A stretch of 64,000 nt of DNA, from assembly GCF_024970185.1 (NCBI RefSeq), contig NZ_CP103965.1, forward strand, positions 5,103,001 to 5,167,000, read 5' to 3'. Numbering within the stretch: position 1 is the first letter of the stretch; the number at the start of each line of letters is the position of its first letter. Positions 11,516 to 64,000 of the stretch are shown piece by piece. The position numbers were made by a program, and so were the translations under genes. Under the pieces are notes generated by a model. That model did no database searches. It saw only the letters and a program-made list of their open reading frames with translations, and had not been told where the DNA came from. Origin of the DNA: Pseudomonas sp. N3-W. Lineage in GTDB: Bacteria; Pseudomonadota; Gammaproteobacteria; Pseudomonadales; Pseudomonadaceae.

Positions 11516-12862
11516 TTAGAACACCGACTGAATTTTCAGACCGGCCACCAGGGCGTTGTCGACTTCATCGACACCGCCTGGGTGAGTGACGTATTGCAGG
11601 TTAGGACGCACGGTCAGCCAGTTGGTGACGTGGAAACCGTAGTTGATCTCGTAGTTGTATTCAGTGGAACGCAGCGGCGAGAACAGCGGGTCGTCGTAGT
11701 TGGTAGCACCATCAGCAACGTTGAGCAGCTCGGCGTTTTTCTTCACGTCATCGTTGACATGGATACGGGCGAAACCGATACCGACGTCGTCTTTTGGACG
11801 TGCATCGAACGGGCCCTTGTACACAAACATCAGCGACTGGTAGTTGTCGACGACGTTGGTGTCCTTGTCGTGGAAGGTGGCGTTGGCCGCGACGTTCAGG
11901 CCGCGCGAAGCATCACCGTTGTGGCTGGTGAGTTGCTGCTGCGCCACGAACCAGTAGCCGTGCTTGCTATCGTGAACGCGATACGGTTCACCGGTGGTTG
12001 CAGCGTCGTTGCCATTGGCGTCTTTAAGCACGTCATCAGCAGGTGCAGTACTTTTGTAGTAACCGACACGGTATTCGCCCGGCAGGCTGTTGACCTTCGG
12101 CGACCAGACCAGTTCGACGGGCAGGACGGTGCCTTTGGTGCCACTGCCGCTGAGTTTGAAGCCGTTACCGTGCTCCAGTTGCGACGGGTTCTGGTTGTAG
12201 GCACCGATCTGCGCATACAACTCAGGCGTGATGTTGTACTTGATGCGCAATGCCGCCTGGCTGACCGGCCAGTTGTACCAGATGCCGGTCGCCCAGTTAC
12301 CCACCTGGGAGCCGCAGAACGCCAGGTTCTGGAAGTCACACGGGAAGGTGTTGAAGTCTTCGCCTTCGCCGAAGTAACCGGCCTTGATGTCCAGTTTGTT
12401 GTCGAGGAACTGGTGCTGAACCCACAATTGGGTCAGACGAACCATGTGGCCACGGCCATAAACCTCTTGAGAGGAACTCAAGGTGCCGGCACGCGGATCG
12501 CCGACGCGGTCATTGGAAATGTTTTCACCGTTACGGTTGGTGAGCTGGACCTTGGCCTGGGTGTTATCCCAGCCGAGCAGTTTTTGCAGGTCCAGCGCCA
12601 CGCCCAGACCAAACTGGTCGCTGTAGCGCGCCGTCTTGTCGTTGTTGTAACCGCCGTGGAGGTTGCCGCCCACTTCACCAACGTAGTCGGCCTTGATATC
12701 GATACCTTGCTCGATCAGCTTGGTCCGCTCGCCACCCCAGTCACCCGTCATCCACTGGGAATCCTGGCTGAACGCGTCAGCCGCGTGAACGCTACCGGCC
12801 AGGGTTATTGCCGCCGCAACAGCTGACAACTGGCAGATACGCACATTGGTGTTCTTTTTCAT
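11516..12862 (-). CDS. oprB: carbohydrate-selective porin OprB
   Basis: Outer-membrane channel for glucose and related sugars. The 448-residue precursor has a signal peptide (MKKNTNVRI… to VHAADAF, cleavage near 27), DWGGERTKL shortly after it, and many alternating beta-strands ending in LKIQSVF with a C-terminal Phe, the usual porin sorting signal. It is the outer-membrane partner of the GtsABCD importer just upstream. An AATAACAATAA motif sits before the start codon and marks it as a likely Hfq/Crc target. A strong terminator follows. Confidence 0.96.
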   Translation of the reverse strand: MKKNTNVRICQLSAVAAAITLAGSVHAADAFSQDSQWMTGDWGGERTKLIEQGIDIKADYVGEVGGNLHGGYNNDKTARYSDQFGLGVALDLQKLLGWDNTQAKVQLTNRNGENISNDRVGDPRAGTLSSSQEVYGRGHMVRLTQLWVQHQFLDNKLDIKAGYFGEGEDFNTFPCDFQNLAFCGSQVGNWATGIWYNWPVSQAALRIKYNITPELYAQIGAYNQNPSQLEHGNGFKLSGSGTKGTVLPVELVWSPKVNSLPGEYRVGYYKSTAPADDVLKDANGNDAATTGEPYRVHDSKHGYWFVAQQQLTSHNGDASRGLNVAANATFHDKDTNVVDNYQSLMFVYKGPFDARPKDDVGIGFARIHVNDDVKKNAELLNVADGATNYDDPLFSPLRSTEYNYEINYGFHVTNWLTVRPNLQYVTHPGGVDEVDNALVAGLKIQSVF

Positions 12863-25551: not shown

Positions 25552-25602
25552 GTTTGAAGGCGTTACATCGCGGTCACAAATCAGCGCTTGACCATTCGAG
25601 CA

Positions 25603-25621
25603 GATGATAAGCATTATCATT
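25603..25621. promoter_or_regulatory. Fur box upstream of the haem-signalling sigma factor
   Basis: GATGATAAGCATTATCATT is a near-perfect Fur box, 26 bp upstream of the GTG start. Iron starvation should derepress the sigma/anti-sigma pair. Confidence 0.9.
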
Positions 25622-25646
25622 CGCTAAAAATGGATCAGGTCCTCCC

Positions 25647-35529: not shown

Positions 35530-35558
35530 CCCTGTGGGAGCAAGCCCGCTCCCACAGG
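35530..35558. repeat. short REP hairpin
   Basis: CCTGTGGGAGCAAGCCCGCTCCCACAGG is a single self-complementary REP unit after the chemoreceptor gene and may also act as transcript end. Confidence 0.85.
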
Positions 35559-56005: not shown

Positions 56006-57076
56006 TTAGCAGTCCGTTAACCGATAGACCAGCACTTCTGCTTCGACGGTGATCATGACTTCATCACCTGGCCTTGGACACAGATGCCCCGGCAAACGTG
56101 AAGTCAGCACGGTCGATGACCCGTCTTCGCCGGCAAGGCTCAGCCGCACGCAGGCATCGTGACCGTAATAATCGACCGTCAGCACCCGGCCTCGGGCCTT
56201 GGCCGCACCGATGCCCACGCCGTCATGAACCGGCACCAGCCGTATCTGTTCCGGGCGCAGCAACACCTCGACGGCCCCTTGCGGCATCCCGGCCATTACC
56301 TGCAATCGCCCCAAGGCACAGCTCACGAAACCGCCTTCGGCCACACCCGGCAACAGCACCGCATCGCCCACAAAGCGCGCCAGCTCAGGGTTCACCGGCG
56401 TCCGGTACAACTGTTCAGGCGTCGCCACCTGCACCAGCCGCCCCTCCAGCAACACGGCCACCTGGCTGCCCATCGACAACGCCTCGGACTGATCATGGGT
56501 AACCAGCACCGCCGTCGCACCCGCTGCCGATATCGCTTGCGCCACGGCTTGCCGGGTCTCCACCCGCAACGTCGCATCCAGCGATGAAAAAGGCTCGTCG
56601 AGCAGTACCAATGCTGGCGCTGGTGCCAGCGCTCGCGCCAACGCTACCCGTTGCTGCTGTCCACCCGACAAGGCATGAGGCGAGCGGCTGGCAAAGCTGG
56701 CGGGCAAGCCGACCAGCTCCAGCAATTCATCGACGCGGTGCCGGGTCTTGCGCAAGTGCCGTGGCAGGCCGAAGACGATGTTGTCGGCGACCGACAGGTG
56801 CGGAAACAGCGCGCCTTCTTGCGGCACATAACCGATGTGGCGTTTCTCGGACGGTACAAACAGGCCGGGGCCGGTGACCGTCTGGCCGTTGATCCGGATC
56901 GTCCCCGCATCGGCACGCTCGAACCCGCACAACAGCCGCAAGAGCGTGGTCTTGCCGCTGCCCGAGGGCCCGAGAATGGCCACCAGGCTGCCGGAGGACA
57001 CCGACAAGTCGACGCCGCGTAACACGGCGGTACTGCCGAACTGTTTGCTGATGCCGTGAATGTGTAGATCAGCCAT
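56006..57076 (-). CDS. ferric-iron ABC transporter ATP-binding protein (FbpC type)
   Basis: A 356-residue ATPase. Walker A GPSGSGKTT (~36–44), Q-loop YVPQEGALFPHLS, signature LSGGQQQRVALARAL, Walker B LVLLDEPFSSLDATLR and switch VLVTHDQSEAL, followed by a TOBE-type C-terminal domain. It lies 9 bp after the permease gene and is last in a six-gene minus-strand cluster. With the ferric-binding protein upstream, Fe3+ import is the likely role; thiamine- or putrescine-type ATPases look similar but lack this context. Confidence 0.9.
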   Translation of the reverse strand: MADLHIHGISKQFGSTAVLRGVDLSVSSGSLVAILGPSGSGKTTLLRLLCGFERADAGTIRINGQTVTGPGLFVPSEKRHIGYVPQEGALFPHLSVADNIVFGLPRHLRKTRHRVDELLELVGLPASFASRSPHALSGGQQQRVALARALAPAPALVLLDEPFSSLDATLRVETRQAVAQAISAAGATAVLVTHDQSEALSMGSQVAVLLEGRLVQVATPEQLYRTPVNPELARFVGDAVLLPGVAEGGFVSCALGRLQVMAGMPQGAVEVLLRPEQIRLVPVHDGVGIGAAKARGRVLTVDYYGHDACVRLSLAGEDGSSTVLTSRLPGHLCPRPGDEVMITVEAEVLVYRLTDC

Positions 57077-57085
57077 GAACCGTGC

Positions 57086-58666
57086 CTATGGTTGGATACC
57101 ACCCAGCACTGCCGATTTGCCGAACAGCGACATCAGCAGCCAGGTGGAAAAAAGCGAAATGCCGACCAGCAGAGCGGCGTACGGTGCGGCGGCGGCAAAG
57201 GCCAGCGCCGACGTATCGACCCACACTTGCGTGGCCAGGGTGTGGGTGCCGATGGGCGACAGCAATAAGGTCGCGGTCAGCTCAGTGACAATGGTGATAA
57301 ACACCATCGACGCCGCCGCACCGATACCCGGCCCGGCCAGCGGCAGAATCACTCGCCATGCCGTTTGCCAGCCGTTCAGGCCCAGCGAGCGGGCGGTGTC
57401 TTCAAGACGCGGCTCAATCTGCACCAGTGCCGCATGCACGCCGACCAGCGCGAGCGGCAGGAACAGGATCGAATAGGTGAGCACCAGCAACGCCGAACTC
57501 TGATAAAGCGGCTGGATGACATGGATCGAAATCGAAATCACCGCCAGGGCGATCACGATCCCGGGAACGCCCTGCCCCAGATAAGAAATACGCTCCAGCA
57601 ACGTGGTCAGCCGACTGGGGTAACGCACCAGCAAAAAGCCCAACGGCAATGCGAGCAGCGTGGTCAGCACGGCCCCGGCCAGACCAAACCCGAGCGACGC
57701 GCAGGTGGTGCTGATCAGTTGTTCCACTGACACTTCGACCGGCGTCACCGCCGCCTCACTGTGCTGCAACAGCCAGTAACCGATCATGCCCAGCGGCACG
57801 CCCAGTGTCGCGACGGTCAGGCCGGTGAAGCCGCTGAAGACCAGCCACTTCTTCCAGCCCAGCTCATAGCGAATAGTGGAGCGGCGCGCGCCCCGGTCTA
57901 GCCGGTCATAACGAGCCAGCCCGCGCACCTTGAATTCCGCGATCAGGCAAATCAGGCACAGCAGCATCAGAATGCATGCCAACACCGCCGCCCCGGCACC
58001 GTCGAAGCTGGCGCGGTACTCGGCGTAGATTTCAGTGGTGAAGGTGCGAAAGCGCAGCAACACGAATGCGCCGAACTCGGACAACACACTGAGGGCGACC
58101 AGCAACACGCCACCGAGCAATGCCGGTTTCAGTTGCGGCAACACCACACGAAAAAAACTGCGCCACGGGCCAAGTCCGAGGGAGCGGGCTGTTTCCTCCA
58201 GCGCCGGGTCCATGCCCCTGAGCGCGGCCGCAACGGGAAGATAGACCAGCGGAAAATAGGCGGTGGTCACGACCAGCAACGCGCCGCTGAAATCCTGCAG
58301 CGACAGGCTGAAAGACAGCCACGCATAGCTGGTGATAAACGGCGGAATCGCCAGCGGCACAGCGGCCAGCACTGCCCAGAAGCGGTAGCCGGGCAGGTGC
58401 GTCCGTTCGACGAACCAGGCCACGGCCGTGCCGATCACCGCCGAGGCAACCGTCGCCGCGACAACGATGAACAAGGTATTGAGGGCCAGCTCGCCCACCA
58501 GAGGACGGAACACCAGTTCAATCGCGTCCTGGTAGCCAAAGCTCGCTGCCTGTTTCAAGGTGAACGCCAGCGGCACCAACACCAGCAGCGCCACACAGCA
58601 ACAGACGAACAAAAGCCCGAACGGCGTACGCCGTTCGGGCTTGACCGCAATGGCCAGGTTAGCCAT
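57086..58666 (-). CDS. ferric-iron ABC transporter permease (FbpB type, fused two-domain)
   Basis: A 526-residue inner-membrane permease with two tandem permease halves (~12 helices). Each half has an EAA loop: ALEETARSLGLGPWRSFFRVVLP in the first and RLEDTARSLGLNGWQTAWRVILP in the second. This double architecture is typical of FbpB/SfuB iron importers. Its ATG directly abuts the stop codon of the binding-protein gene. Confidence 0.92.
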   Translation of the reverse strand: MANLAIAVKPERRTPFGLLFVCCCVALLVLVPLAFTLKQAASFGYQDAIELVFRPLVGELALNTLFIVVAATVASAVIGTAVAWFVERTHLPGYRFWAVLAAVPLAIPPFITSYAWLSFSLSLQDFSGALLVVTTAYFPLVYLPVAAALRGMDPALEETARSLGLGPWRSFFRVVLPQLKPALLGGVLLVALSVLSEFGAFVLLRFRTFTTEIYAEYRASFDGAGAAVLACILMLLCLICLIAEFKVRGLARYDRLDRGARRSTIRYELGWKKWLVFSGFTGLTVATLGVPLGMIGYWLLQHSEAAVTPVEVSVEQLISTTCASLGFGLAGAVLTTLLALPLGFLLVRYPSRLTTLLERISYLGQGVPGIVIALAVISISIHVIQPLYQSSALLVLTYSILFLPLALVGVHAALVQIEPRLEDTARSLGLNGWQTAWRVILPLAGPGIGAAASMVFITIVTELTATLLLSPIGTHTLATQVWVDTSALAFAAAAPYAALLVGISLFSTWLLMSLFGKSAVLGGIQP

Positions 58667-59680
58667 TTACAGCAGGCCGGCCTGACGCAGCAACTTGACC
58701 GCCTGGGTATCGTCACCCAGCGCTTTCATGTCCAGGGCGGGTGGTGACAGCTGACTGAACGGCGTCAGCAAAGGATCAGGCGCCACACCGGCACGCAACG
58801 GATACTCGTAGGTCACCTTGTTCTGCGCCATCAACTGCTGTGCGCCTTCGCTGGTCAGGTAAGCCAGGAACTTGTTCGAGGCGTCCCTGTTGTGCGTGGT
58901 CTTCAGCACGGCTGCGCCCGACACGTTGACCAGCGCGCCGACATCACCGTTACCAAAGTGATAGAGCGCGCTGTGCGTGCCTTTATCACCCAGCTCGGCA
59001 TGCAGGCGAGCCCAGTAGTAGTTGTTGATGATGCCAACCGCCACACCGCCACGGTTGACGGCGGCGGTGACACCTTCGTCGTCATTGAAAATCTGCGAGT
59101 TGGTGCGCAAGCCCTTGAGCCATTCCAGCGTCGCGGCATCGCCCTTCAACGCCAGCACAGCGCTGACCACCGGCAGGAAATCGCCATCGGATGGCGCGAT
59201 GGCCAGCTTGCCTTTCCAGGCAGGGCCGGCCAGATCCAGCAGCGATGCCGGCAAATCAGCAGGCTGGATCAGCTTGGTGTTGTACGCCAGCACGTTCTCA
59301 CGGGCGACCACACCGACCCATTCGCCGCTCGGCGAGTTGAAGCGTGCCGGGATGGTGGACAAGGTGGCGGGCTCGACTTTCTCCAGCATGCCTTTGCCTT
59401 CCAGCAACATCAGCTCGGGGGAGTTTTCGGTGAAATACACATCGGCGGGCGAGGCGCTGCCTTCGGCCAGCAATTGCGCCGCCAGTTCCGGACCTTCGCC
59501 GGTACGGACTTTCACCGAAATGCCGGACTGCTTCTCGAAGTCCTTGACCAGCAGATTGACGGTCTGCTCGTGCTGGGCGCTGTACAGGGTCAACGAGGCC
59601 GCCTGGGAAACGCCCGACGCCAGCAGTGCTGCGGCTACGCAAGCGAGTTTGAACGTGCCGTTGAAAACGTTGAAAGACAT
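58667..59680 (-). CDS. periplasmic ferric-binding protein (FbpA type)
   Basis: A 337-residue exported protein; signal peptide to VSQAAS (~28). All four protein iron ligands of FbpA-type transferrin-like proteins can be placed: His37 in YSAQHEQT, Glu85 in FTENSPEL, and the adjacent Tyr221–Tyr222 in IINNYYWARL. I use the ATG at 59680 with GGAG upstream; an in-frame start at 59701 is less likely. It should pass Fe3+ to the permease. A REP hairpin lies between it and the upstream peroxidase gene. Confidence 0.92.
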   Translation of the reverse strand: MSFNVFNGTFKLACVAAALLASGVSQAASLTLYSAQHEQTVNLLVKDFEKQSGISVKVRTGEGPELAAQLLAEGSASPADVYFTENSPELMLLEGKGMLEKVEPATLSTIPARFNSPSGEWVGVVARENVLAYNTKLIQPADLPASLLDLAGPAWKGKLAIAPSDGDFLPVVSAVLALKGDAATLEWLKGLRTNSQIFNDDEGVTAAVNRGGVAVGIINNYYWARLHAELGDKGTHSALYHFGNGDVGALVNVSGAAVLKTTHNRDASNKFLAYLTSEGAQQLMAQNKVTYEYPLRAGVAPDPLLTPFSQLSPPALDMKALGDDTQAVKLLRQAGLL

Positions 59681-59716
59681 TCGCAATGCTCCAAAAACCA
59701 AAGATGAGTACGCCCC

Positions 59717-59743
59717 ACTGTGGGAGCAAGCCCGCTCCCACAG
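59717..59743. repeat. short REP hairpin inside the iron cluster
   Basis: ACTGTGGGAGCAAGCCCGCTCCCACAGG sits between the peroxidase gene and the ferric-binding-protein gene. Confidence 0.88.
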
Positions 59744-59773
59744 GGGTTTCGCTTAACTGACTGATTTGGGTGT

Positions 59774-61078
59774 TTACCCGGTCAGCCCTTCGAACAGCGC
59801 CGCGCCAATGAACGAGCCCTCGGCAGCCCCCGGCGGGCAGGCAAAAATGCCGCTGCCGACGTGGGTGGTGTACTGGTTCATGATGTCGAGGGAGGCCAGT
59901 TTCTTGTTGATCTTGATAAAGCCGGTGCGTGGATCCCGCTGATAGGCGACGAAAAACAACCCGGCATCCAGCATCATTCCCTGGCGCCATGGCGGCCAGC
60001 GTTCGGCATAAAAACCGACACCGTCGTTGAAGGAATAAGCGCGACGCAGGATTTGCGAACCGTCGTTTTCAGCGGCGGATGACAAGCGCGAATGCGCGGT
60101 TGCCGGGATCACCGGGTTGCCGTCCTGGTCCTCGGCGTCCAGGTCCAGCGGATCGGTTTCATGGGTCTTGCCCAGCGGCGCGCCAACGGCCTTGTCTCGA
60201 CCGACGACTTCCTCCTGAAAGCCCAGCTCGGTCTTGTCCCAGTGCTCCAGCGCGATACGGATGCGCCGTACCACCACATAGGAGCCGGCCTTCATCCAGC
60301 CGCCTTCGTCACCGACCCAGAGCATCTTGCTCATCAGGTCGTTGTCGTGGGTCGACGGATTGTTGGTGCCGTCCTTGAATCCCATCAAATTGCGCGTGGT
60401 GCCGCCCGCAGGCGGTGGACTGGTAAAGCCCGATTGCACCCACTTGATCGTGGCGATGCCGGTCGCCAGATTGAGCAGTTCGCGCAAGGCGTGAAACGCC
60501 ACTTGCGGATCATCGGCACAGGCCTGAATGCTCAGGTCACCGTCAGATTTTTCCGCAATCAGCTGGTCGCCATTGAATTTCGGCAAGTCGACCAGCGCTT
60601 CCGGCCGGCGTGCCGCCAAGCCGTAGCGATCCACGCCATCACGGGTGAACAACCCCGGCCCGAAGCCGAACGTGATGGTCAGGCGAGCCGCTGCAAGCCC
60701 CGCTGCCGAGCCGCCATCCGGCGCTGGAGAGTCCTTGGGCTGGCTCAACGGCTGCGCGGTTTCGCCACGGCTCATGCGATTGGCGGCGTCGGTCCAGCGC
60801 TTCAGCAGCGTGATGACATCGGCCCGTGTGCTGGTGTCGAGATCGAACGTGGCGAAGATCGAATGCGTCTGCTGCGGCGTGACAATGCCGCTTTGATGCA
60901 CGCCATAAAACGGTTCAACCATGGACGCCGGACTGGCCGGCTGATCACCCCGGGTGAAGCGATCGGCAGCCGCCATGCCGCCGGCGCCGATGGCCCCGGC
61001 AGCAATGGCCAGGCCACCAGCGGCAGTCAACAGACCGCGCCGGGACAGACCGCTGTTAGTGTCGACGGGCTTGTTCAT
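59774..61078 (-). CDS. efeB: Tat-exported DyP-type peroxidase / deferrochelatase (EfeB-like)
   Basis: A 434-residue haem protein exported by the Tat path: LSRRGLLTAAGG (11–22) is the twin-arginine signal. The DyP motif GFKDGTNNP (GxxDG at 233–237) and a C-terminal VGFYAERWPPWRQGMMLDAGLFFVAYQRDP are clear. EfeB oxidises Fe(II) or releases iron from haem in EfeUOB systems; here no EfeU or EfeO is near and an FbpABC importer follows. Its ATG overlaps the stop of the upstream beta-propeller gene (ATGA), so the two are co-translated. Confidence 0.92.
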   Translation of the reverse strand: MNKPVDTNSGLSRRGLLTAAGGLAIAAGAIGAGGMAAADRFTRGDQPASPASMVEPFYGVHQSGIVTPQQTHSIFATFDLDTSTRADVITLLKRWTDAANRMSRGETAQPLSQPKDSPAPDGGSAAGLAAARLTITFGFGPGLFTRDGVDRYGLAARRPEALVDLPKFNGDQLIAEKSDGDLSIQACADDPQVAFHALRELLNLATGIATIKWVQSGFTSPPPAGGTTRNLMGFKDGTNNPSTHDNDLMSKMLWVGDEGGWMKAGSYVVVRRIRIALEHWDKTELGFQEEVVGRDKAVGAPLGKTHETDPLDLDAEDQDGNPVIPATAHSRLSSAAENDGSQILRRAYSFNDGVGFYAERWPPWRQGMMLDAGLFFVAYQRDPRTGFIKINKKLASLDIMNQYTTHVGSGIFACPPGAAEGSFIGAALFEGLTG

Positions 61079-62205
61079 TTGGCCAGTACGAGCGTATTCA
61101 CGTCGTCTTCCACGTAGTAGAAACCGTCGCCCGTCGGGGTCATGGCAATGCCGAACAAATCGCCGTTACCCGGTGGCACCTGAGCTTTGTTGGCGTCGAT
61201 CCACTGCGCATAGAGTTGCTTGCCGGTTTGCAGGTCGATCTCGACAACCTTGCCGTTCAAACCGTTGGTGGTCAGCAAGTGGCCATTAGGCGCGGTGGCC
61301 AATGCCAGCGGACGCATCAACAAACCATCGTGGGTCAACGTGCGGCCGACACCGGCGCTGGTGGTACGGGTGGTCGCATCCCAAATTTCGCTGATGCGGT
61401 TGGCAACGGTATCGGAGACGTACAGCTTGTCGTCCTTGCCCAACGCCAGGCCGGTAGGGCCGACGAGGAACACGGCTTTGTCCGCCTGGGCGCTGAAGCC
61501 ACCCGCTACCACTGTCTGGTTCTTGATAACCGGTGGCTTGCCATCGGCGATGGACAGTTCAAGACGCAATACCGTGGACTGGGTGACCACCGGCGGCGTG
61601 CCCTTGGAGCTGCCCATGCCGAAGCCTGCGTTGCTGACAAACAAGGTCGCGCTGGAGCCGTTGTCGATCACCGCCATGTTGCCCCACGGGTCGTTGATGT
61701 TCGGCCCCGACCAGACATCAGCAACCTTGCCGTTCGGATCCAGCACGATCAGGCAACCCGCGCCCTTGGTGTCGGTCGTACCGTCGTTGCTCGGGGTGCT
61801 GCCGACGATCACCCAGCCGCTCTTGAGCATGGTCATCGCTGTGCTGAGGCCGACGCCGCCCGGGCACTGAGGCAAGTCGTGGGGCAACTGGGCAAATAGT
61901 GACAACTGCTTGCTGGTCGGGTTGTAGTCAACAATGGTAGTGCCGACACCTTGCAGGTTGGCGGCGTTGTTGAAGTTGTCGACCAGCACGTCATCCTTCT
62001 GGATTTTCCCGGCGGACACCGGCGCGACGACGATGGCGTACGGGTTCTGGTCGCCGTTGTCCGGCACCGTGGACGTCAGGGTCAGGTGCTTGTGAATATT
62101 CTGCAGAAAACCTTGCGGCTCATCGGCCTGTGCCGAACCAAAGACGCACAGCGTGGCCAGCACCGCGATGCCTTTGCCAAGGCGCGGAAAGTTCAAATGT
62201 GTCAT
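61075..62205 (-). CDS. exported NHL-repeat beta-propeller protein
   Basis: A 376-residue periplasmic or secreted protein; signal peptide to GSAQADEP (~27). Repeats such as GPTGLALGKDDKLYVSDTVANRI, RPLALATAPNGHLLTTNGLNGKVVEID and PWGNMAVIDNGSSATLFVSNA are NHL/SMP-30-like blades. It is coupled to the DyP peroxidase by a 4-bp overlap, so the two probably work together, perhaps holding a substrate or partner. No catalytic motif is recognised. Confidence 0.85.
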   Translation of the reverse strand: MTHLNFPRLGKGIAVLATLCVFGSAQADEPQGFLQNIHKHLTLTSTVPDNGDQNPYAIVVAPVSAGKIQKDDVLVDNFNNAANLQGVGTTIVDYNPTSKQLSLFAQLPHDLPQCPGGVGLSTAMTMLKSGWVIVGSTPSNDGTTDTKGAGCLIVLDPNGKVADVWSGPNINDPWGNMAVIDNGSSATLFVSNAGFGMGSSKGTPPVVTQSTVLRLELSIADGKPPVIKNQTVVAGGFSAQADKAVFLVGPTGLALGKDDKLYVSDTVANRISEIWDATTRTTSAGVGRTLTHDGLLMRPLALATAPNGHLLTTNGLNGKVVEIDLQTGKQLYAQWIDANKAQVPPGNGDLFGIAMTPTGDGFYYVEDDVNTLVLAK

Positions 62206-62288
62206 GCAATACTCCTGATATCTCGAACTCGGCAGGACCCGTGGGTCAGGGGCCGATTCATTTGTTCCCGGCTTAAGCGTTCACACCG

Positions 62289-63794
62289 CTACAGCGTGAT
62301 GTTGGTGCGCAAGCCCCAGACAAAGGTGTTGCCGAGTCGCTGAGTCGGGTCGTTCGGGTTCTGCCCCGCGCCTGGATTGAGCGTGTATTGAATGTCCGGT
62401 TGCAGTTGCCACCATGGGGTCAACTGGTACTGGTAGGTCGCTTCGACGTAGGTCTCGCCGTGACGCTGGCGGTTGCCGGCATCGGCATCCAGCCCGCTGG
62501 CATAATTGCTGACCCTGGCGTAACCCATGCCCAGGTTGACCGTATCGGTATCACGTCCGGCAAAAGGCGCCGTCAGGCTGACGCCGGCGTTGGCACTGAA
62601 ACCGATCAGGTTGCGATCACCCGGTGCGCCCATGACACGGGCAAACACGCCCAGCGCTTGCGGGCTGTCGTCGGCCTTGCGCCAGACCATCTGGTCCGCC
62701 ACGGCGTAGACGCTGTAGTCACCCTTGTGCTCGGCCGGATTGCCGCTGCTGGCCGGATCGGCAAGCGAAAGCCCGTCGGCGTCGTAACGCTGATCGGCGA
62801 ACTTCTCATTGTTGTACCAGGCGCCAAGCTTGTAGGTGCCCGGCAGACCGTTTTTGCCACCGGTATCCAGTTGCCCGACCGAAGGCTGATTGACGCCGTA
62901 CTGCAACTCGCCGATGAACATCGCACCGTCGTGGGTGTTGAAGTTGGTGCCGTGGGCGTTCGCCCGTTGTGGATCGCCCACGTTCGTACCGGCCGGGTTA
63001 CCGTCGTATACGCCACCGAGAACGGTCAGTTCATCGGTCAGGTGAGCGCGCAGACGCACACCCAATGCGGACAGCGGGTAGGCAGGGCCGCCGGCTGGCA
63101 TGTCGTAGGAAGGCACGGCCGGCCAGCCGAACATGGTGTTGACGAAGGTACCGGCGTACTGACTGACCATGAACTCCTGGTCGATACTTTGCTGGCCGGC
63201 GCGGATATCCAGCGCGTCATCGAGGAATTTCTGCTGGTACCACGCCTCCCACAGACGGGTGCCGGTGTCCGCTTCGATGCCGCTGGCGGTTTGAATGCTG
63301 CCGAGGTTGTTCTGGCTCAGGTTGCGGCCGTGCACATTCACCGCGCTGACGTTGAGGGAGCCGCCCGCCAGGCCGAAGGCCTTCAGGGTGTCGAGTTTCA
63401 GCGTCATGGTCGTCAGGCCGTCATAGGCCCCGCCGCGCTTCAAACCACCGTTGGCGTTGTTCAGGTATTCGCTGGTTTCCGTCAGACCGAGGGTCACACC
63501 GTAGCCTGCCAGGACGGAACGCAAACCGCCGATATCACCGAGCATGTTTTGACGGGTCCAGAACCCGGTCCACTGATCGGCGGGCGCGGCCTTGATGGTC
63601 AGATCCGCTTCAGGCAGATCAGCCGGGTTGACGTCATCGGCCGCTGCGGATTGCGCTGCAAACGTCGGGCTGATCCAGGCGCAGGCGAACGCACAGGCGA
63701 TGGCCGTCGCGAGGCCTGTCTTGCGGGCTGAAAATGAATTGGACCGGGTTATTGTTCGGTATTGTTTTGATCGGTGGAAAGACATCGCCCGCAT
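62289..63794 (-). CDS. OprB-type outer-membrane porin, iron-regulated
   Basis: A 501-residue porin. A long N-terminus with signal peptide (TGLATAIACAFACAWISPTFAAQ) leads into GFWTRQNMLGDIGGLRSVLAGYGV and repeated beta-strands (DIRAGQQSIDQEFMVSQY, TYKLGAWYNNEKF), closing with GNTFVWGLRTNITL. It belongs to the carbohydrate-porin (OprB) family, but heads a cluster of iron genes and has a Fur box 84 bp upstream. The ATG at 63794 has CGGAG at the right distance; ATG 63785 is an alternative. The cargo may be a ferric complex rather than a sugar. Confidence 0.88.
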   Translation of the reverse strand: MRAMSFHRSKQYRTITRSNSFSARKTGLATAIACAFACAWISPTFAAQSAAADDVNPADLPEADLTIKAAPADQWTGFWTRQNMLGDIGGLRSVLAGYGVTLGLTETSEYLNNANGGLKRGGAYDGLTTMTLKLDTLKAFGLAGGSLNVSAVNVHGRNLSQNNLGSIQTASGIEADTGTRLWEAWYQQKFLDDALDIRAGQQSIDQEFMVSQYAGTFVNTMFGWPAVPSYDMPAGGPAYPLSALGVRLRAHLTDELTVLGGVYDGNPAGTNVGDPQRANAHGTNFNTHDGAMFIGELQYGVNQPSVGQLDTGGKNGLPGTYKLGAWYNNEKFADQRYDADGLSLADPASSGNPAEHKGDYSVYAVADQMVWRKADDSPQALGVFARVMGAPGDRNLIGFSANAGVSLTAPFAGRDTDTVNLGMGYARVSNYASGLDADAGNRQRHGETYVEATYQYQLTPWWQLQPDIQYTLNPGAGQNPNDPTQRLGNTFVWGLRTNITL

Positions 63795-63877
63795 CTATAG
63801 CTCCGTATCCCCTGGCCTGCCTGCGCCCTGCACCACCTCTTGGCGGGTGGTAGTCAAAGCGAGGCATGCATGAGAAT

Positions 63878-63896
63878 AATAATGAGAATGACTATC
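63878..63896. promoter_or_regulatory. Fur box of the porin–propeller–DyP–Fbp cluster
   Basis: AATAATGAGAATGACTATC matches 15 of 19 positions of the Fur consensus. A second overlapping half (GAGAATAATAATGAG) lies just left, as in multi-dimer Fur sites. Confidence 0.8.
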
Positions 63897-64000
63897 GAAA
63901 ACGCGCGAATATTAGGCACCGGCCCTTTTAAATACAATTTGTTTCAGATGACACTTTTTTCATGTTGGAGAGGCGGGATTTTTGCGCGTTCTCAGCAGGC

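Follow-up and report, generated by a model that had tools for sequence, protein, structure and literature searches.

Do six neighbouring genes near the end of a 64,000-nucleotide stretch of the Pseudomonas sp. N3-W genome (contig NZ_CP103965.1, positions 5,103,001 to 5,167,000; hereafter the window) form a single iron-uptake system, and if so how might it work? They code for an OprB-family porin, an NHL-type beta-propeller, a Tat-type DyP peroxidase and the three parts of an FbpABC-type importer. As judged from sequence, the cluster (56006–63794) is a real, conserved gene unit of iron-uptake type. We lean, if only slightly, towards reading it as a self-contained import module, headed by a Fur box and acquired by this genome, in which iron would follow a TonB-independent route, the DyP peroxidase would feed FbpABC, and the propeller would be the partner of DyP.

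Organization of the cluster

All six genes are transcribed leftwards (minus strand) and are separated by short gaps or overlaps, as an earlier note on this DNA had reported. The OprB-family porin gene (62289–63794; PF04966, E 2.1e-99) is first, and is followed after 83 bp by the NHL-type propeller gene (61075–62205; PF01436), a member of an uncharacterised family with a signal peptide predicted by eye. The gene for the Tat-type DyP peroxidase (59774–61078; the EfeB equivalog TIGR01412, with N- and C-terminal Dyp_perox domains) overlaps that of the propeller in the sequence ATGA, and the FbpA/HitA-type ferric-binding protein gene (58667–59683; SBP_bac, with solved relatives HitA, SfuA and YfuA) lies 90 bp further on; its start is a chosen ATG, the longest open reading frame (ORF) beginning with a TTG at 59701. 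The FbpA stop abuts the start of the gene for the FbpB-type permease (57086–58666; two BPD domains, PF00528 (BPD_transp_1) in two stretches), and 9 bp separate this from the FbpC-type ATPase gene with a TOBE domain (56006–57076; PF00005 (ABC_tran) and PF08402). The ATGA overlap and the abutting stop and start are both present in the sequence as the earlier note described them. None of FbpA, FbpB and FbpC comes up to an NCBIfam cut-off (the ferric ATPase model gives 219 against a cut-off of 496), and one promoter-like site is seen against 1.7 expected. One annotated public record names the six products carbohydrate porin, hypothetical protein, efeB, and iron ABC transporter binding protein, permease and ATP-binding protein.

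Conservation of the six-gene unit

A 15-sequence propeller alignment gave 234 loci with relatives among one genome each of 84,980 species, and the best 80 of these 234 were analysed by running all six proteins against them with tblastn and counting gene order from the match positions. Complete six-gene sets are found in 75 of the best 80 loci, with order and strand identical in 75/75; the other five (L023, L024, L047, L055 and L056) are partial sets where the fetched contig ends. Judged by record titles, the carriers are Pseudomonas (including P. gingeri), Andreprevotia, Aquitalea, Chromobacterium, a Neisseriaceae bacterium, Polaromonas, Burkholderia, Paraburkholderia, Caballeronia, Trinickia, Pararobbsia, Candidatus Burkholderia crenata and one Burkholderiales metagenome-assembled genome. 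Some soil and plant bacteria thus carry the cluster, where it probably serves iron uptake under scarcity. Of the six proteins, the propeller is on average the one most similar to its counterpart in the window (mean identity 0.717), and it also has the largest share of near-invariant columns (0.431). In the Candidatus Burkholderia crenata locus (L091) the porin aligns in three pieces, yet its ORF covers at least 90% of the query length. Flanking genes differ between loci, and further genes were rejected as members of the unit because no neighbour family occurs in more than 23/80 loci, the figure for the commonest.

Co-occurrence and variant clusters

Co-occurrence was also counted at the level of genomes, by searching 120 genomes of one Burkholderia-type family (centre G345) for propeller, DyP, FbpA and OprB; weak class-P-like DyP matches (E > 1e-11), which many genomes have, were excluded from the count. 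A strong propeller match (E < 1e-160) is present in 25 of the 120, cluster-type DyP (59–69% identity) in the same 25, and the two are adjacent by coordinates in 25/25. Four other genomes have DyP at 38–45% only and no propeller match; the three of these that were fetched (L111–L113) are without propeller, porin and FbpA, and L113 has EfeU- and EfeO-like neighbours (named by eye). FbpA with at least 67% identity is found in 26 genomes, namely 24 of the 25 pair carriers together with G438 and G461, and OprB at E < 1e-60 in 43: the 25 pair carriers, G438 and G461, G427 with a remnant, and 15 that lack the cluster. The association is closest between propeller and DyP, and FbpA is almost as closely bound to them; the porin is the loosest and least specific part, because 15/120 genomes have a close homologue without the cluster. 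In a wider sample of the phylum, a strong propeller match is found in 2 of 299 genomes, the window's own and G345. We looked for the outcome that would have spoken against the earlier note, six families that rarely travel together, and found the opposite; chance adjacency was rejected, given identical order and strand in 75/75 loci and propeller-DyP adjacency in 25/25 genomes.

Variant clusters point to how the unit may be assembled. Genomes G438 and G461 have a porin-FbpA-FbpB-FbpC cluster, and neither genome contains a match to propeller or DyP at any position; because of these two, the propeller-DyP pair looks like an add-on, and the porin appears tied to the ferric importer. The pattern suggests two modules, porin-FbpABC and propeller-DyP, joined in most carriers. 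In G427 a porin gene is followed by short propeller and DyP pieces, an apparent decayed copy.

The upstream Fur-like box

The 15/19 Fur box that had been placed ahead of the first gene is there: AATAATGAGAATGACTATC at 63878–63896 gives the best score, 15/19, to the Fur consensus, and 13/15 to the 15-base 7-1-7 pattern, and a Fur scan allowing at most three mismatches returned no site. Of 78 usable loci, 61 share with the window a site of at least 13/15 ahead of OprB, where about 0.033 per region is expected by chance, a figure derived from the loci themselves. Over the 80 loci (1,557,519 bases) there are 68 such strong sites, 62 of them upstream of the porin (in 62 loci), one within a cluster and five elsewhere; with only that one intra-cluster site, a second conserved box within the cluster was not seen across the 80 loci. 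Porin homologues outside the cluster do not reach a score of 13 (0/12; two reach 12), and the variants score 12 and 13 (G438 and G461), 11 (G406, described below) and 10 (the G427 remnant). One conserved Fur-like box heads the cluster, which would place it under iron regulation. The earlier picture is supported in so far as the genes are inherited together as a single unit, follow this one conserved box and include an importer of iron type. A second 15/19 Fur-like site, an overlapping one, is at window 25600–25624, far from the cluster.

Predicted roles of the components

The porin scores 333.9 bits against Pfam OprB (PF04966; cut-off 22.9), which places it in the family, and just 62 bits against solved Porin B; it is 31% and 29% identical to two other OprB homologues of the same genome. 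It would carry iron or a small iron complex across the outer membrane without TonB. The 29%-identical homologue shares the window (G000:C1:5114570–5115760, approximately window 11570–12760).

The DyP peroxidase belongs to the EfeB class with a twin-arginine signal, scoring 458.9 bits against TIGR01412 (the NCBI EfeB equivalog, a deferrochelatase/peroxidase family; cut-off 428). In alignments of 78 sequences (77 loci and the window), R13, R14, D236, R271, R272, H329, R345 and R346 are invariant, and we take these to be the Tat motif, catalytic Asp, proximal His and distal Arg. Among solved structures 4grc scores highest (330.7 bits), and E. coli-type YcdB chains come lower (223 bits); YcdB is EfeB (PMC8197335). 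Once exported to the periplasm the enzyme would use peroxide to oxidise Fe2+ to Fe3+, or would loosen iron from a weak ligand. Oxidation of Fe2+ to supply an Fe3+ permease has been proposed as a role of EfeB homologues (PMC3068169; PMC8197335). A DyP paired with a ferric-binding protein makes chemical sense, because oxidation yields the form that FbpA binds.

An alternative, which we regard as unlikely, is haem-iron extraction, with DyP acting as a deferrochelatase on periplasmic haem, the propeller holding haem or porphyrin, and FbpABC importing the freed iron. The name of the DyP family, deferrochelatase/peroxidase, is in keeping with this, but haem is large for an OprB-type pore, and the conserved loci have a porin and not a haem receptor. 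Haem-iron use is supported for E. coli EfeB and for S. aureus FepB with its partner (PMC3577903); the deferrochelatase role of EfeB homologues is nevertheless disputed (PMC8197335; PMC3577903), and the activity was not seen with YwbN (PMC8197335). A secreted Paraburkholderia DyP has been read as an oxidative soil-carbon enzyme (PMC9723775); it may or may not be of the cluster type, and an iron role is worth checking for it.

The propeller gives an AlphaFold2 model with pLDDT 80.9 and pTM 0.84, and its relatives in the PDB are propeller folds. The fold is like that of SMP-30/gluconolactonase and the SGL model matches 19/52 members, a similarity at the level of fold. Here a second alternative arises: iron would enter through the porin as small ferric chelates of organic compounds from plants or soil (phenolic or sugar acids), the ligand would be bound or opened by the propeller and oxidised by DyP, and the freed Fe3+ would pass to FbpA. 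We give this ligand destruction as little credence as haem extraction: the fold says nothing of function, because the scores of NHL domains and DFPase are almost as good, and at the sequence level the matches are confined to NHL-type and similar repeats, a profile search of solved structures giving mainly NHL-repeat alignments. Propeller paralogues (35–42% identity) are found elsewhere, and 15 of their 17 full-length places were fetched (L096–L110); 15/15 are without DyP, FbpA or OprB nearby, with generic ABC ATPases in L099, L101 and L109 and a 42-bit FbpB-like fragment in L106. The propeller would be the dedicated periplasmic partner of DyP and would hold DyP, iron or ligand at hand-over, in a role much like that of EfeO towards EfeB. 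FepA/FepB and EfeO/EfeB function only as matched pairs (PMC3577903), and the propeller-DyP pair may be their counterpart.

The importer is of the FbpABC type, having a binding protein of the FbpA/HitA group that retains the iron ligands. All four (H38, E86, Y222 and Y223) are kept in the window, as the earlier note had said of the four FbpA-type ligands, and H38, Y222 and Y223 are invariant in the 78 aligned sequences. The closest solved structures are HitA (263 bits), SfuA and YfuA. FbpA would take up Fe3+, which FbpBC would then pump into the cell.

Genomic context and origin

The segment from 55990 to the end of the window at 64000, and on for about 150 bases past it (to L117:150), has no counterpart in two of six relatives. 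In these two (G002 and G005) the sequence goes from window 55989 to L117:151–153 with 47–49 bases between, where about 8.16 kb lies here. In the other four, the flanks are about 3 kb apart in G004, and only the left flank is found in the 5.5 kb read of G007, G009 and G010. Among 99 sampled Pseudomonas genomes, propeller and cluster-type DyP are present in the same four, other full-length DyP matches being 35–39% identical. The cluster is an addition in this genome; as most of the genus is without it, the simplest reading is that it was gained, although the relatives may instead have lost it. A foreign base composition was not seen (G+C 0.622 in the cluster against 0.603 in the window), and a donor was not found, the tree placing the Pseudomonas clusters beside Andreprevotia with a support of just 0.043. 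The interval from window 55989 to L117:150, between nadA and queC/tRNA-Lys (the tRNA-Lys is at L117:217–292), looks like an insertion hot spot.

The earlier note held that EfeO and EfeU had been replaced by FbpABC and the porin, which is wrong for this organism: the genome keeps an efeU-efeO-efeB-efeM operon elsewhere (names assigned by eye), and replacement was rejected for that reason. The EfeB of that operon is 36% identical to the cluster DyP, and a HitA-like protein is also encoded elsewhere in the genome (42% identity).

Points against a single import module

Several observations weigh against one porin-to-importer route. OprB is a known sugar porin family, and its homologues also occur alone, as in the 15 of 120 genomes without the cluster. 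FbpA E86 is kept in 69/78 sequences and is Ser in 9/78 (a Pseudomonas, Andreprevotia, a Neisseriaceae bacterium, Aquitalea, four Chromobacterium and Polaromonas). The loci include six further Pseudomonas clusters, and these reach just 11–12/15 on the Fur pattern. The two halves of the cluster could also be uncoupled by a strong hairpin early in fbpB and by a REP-like repeat ahead of fbpA. The hairpin, perfect over 13 bp, falls within the first fbpB codons (58613–58642, minus strand; z -4.65); it has 13 bp also in L013, L015 and L016, where one stem pair is altered on both sides, and 9 bp in L012, with none at the same place in L014 and L018, and is possibly an intra-operon control element in Pseudomonas. 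The REP-like inverted repeat, GTGGGAGC...GCTCCCAC (59720–59741), lies within the dyp-fbpA spacer, whose fold has z -2.59; the same sequence is present again at window 35534–35555, and its pattern has no match in L012, L013 and L015.

A further point against is genome G406, which has porin-propeller-DyP; the 19 kb fetched contain no match to FbpABC, and a search of the whole genome at 1e-60 gives no FbpA. An ORF of 1235 codons lies 3' of DyP there (L130:7791–11498); it has no Pfam match and may not be a gene. Since both split forms exist, porin-FbpABC in G438 and G461 and porin-propeller-DyP in G406, the cluster might hold two functions in one regulon, with porin-FbpABC for ferric import and propeller-DyP for a separate defence against peroxide or of the envelope, the pair merely sharing the Fur box. 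We judge this less likely still than haem extraction or ligand destruction: cluster-type FbpA stands beside the pair in 24/25 genomes, and the DyP falls within an iron-uptake equivalog. The favoured import module, whose substrate, redox step, porin cargo and propeller role we infer from sequence comparison, also has a broader form, which we put forward tentatively, at a little under even confidence. This would be an undescribed, transferable system of two exchangeable modules, a TonB-independent porin-FbpABC ferric route and a propeller-DyP pair, in which an NHL family would be EfeO-like and an EfeB-type ferroxidase would feed an ABC importer and not an Ftr1-type permease.

Relationship to known systems

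If the proposal is right, EfeB-type peroxidases are not bound to EfeU and EfeO and can sit in an exchangeable iron-supply module, iron can cross the whole envelope of some Gram-negative bacteria by a route that has no TonB receptor, and a conserved propeller family labelled 'hypothetical protein' in a public record gains its first role. The unit would also be a new test bed for the dispute over EfeB (Fe2+ oxidation or haem deferrochelation), because DyP here has another fixed partner and the importer that follows it is of the ferric-binding type. No description of the six-gene unit was found in the literature searched, in so far as its text was available; subscription literature was mostly outside the search, so one may be in print.

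The cluster resembles EfeUOB/EfeUOBM (FepABC in S. aureus, YwbLMN in B. subtilis) in that both are iron loci linked to Fur, with a Tat-exported DyP of the EfeB class and a second partner outside the cytoplasm (PMC3577903; PMC9174327), and differs in having an ABC importer, a porin and a propeller. An EfeU (Ftr1-like) permease is found neither among the six genes nor as a conserved neighbour in the 80 loci, and EfeO and EfeM are likewise absent from the six, being found at the separate efe operon. With FbpABC, HitABC and SfuABC it shares a binding protein (His, Glu, Tyr and Tyr kept in the window), a fused-domain permease and an ATPase; unlike them, its importer is built into a unit with porin, propeller and DyP, and the Glu varies as noted above. 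There are also two precedents for the porin. FeoP, an OprB-family porin, likewise stands at the head of the Acidithiobacillus FeoPABC iron locus, for which a Fur box is predicted (PMC2631029), but the route there is the ferrous one of FeoB, and DyP and propeller are not described in the available text. Synechocystis Slr1908, an iron-selective porin, provides iron uptake through a porin without a siderophore receptor (PMC11126600), as proposed for the cluster porin, but is a cyanobacterial SLH/OprB-domain porin (PMC8707739) that, from the available text, apparently stands outside any such unit. Set beside these systems, the six-gene unit combines parts of known kinds with one uncharacterised family in what is apparently an undescribed arrangement.
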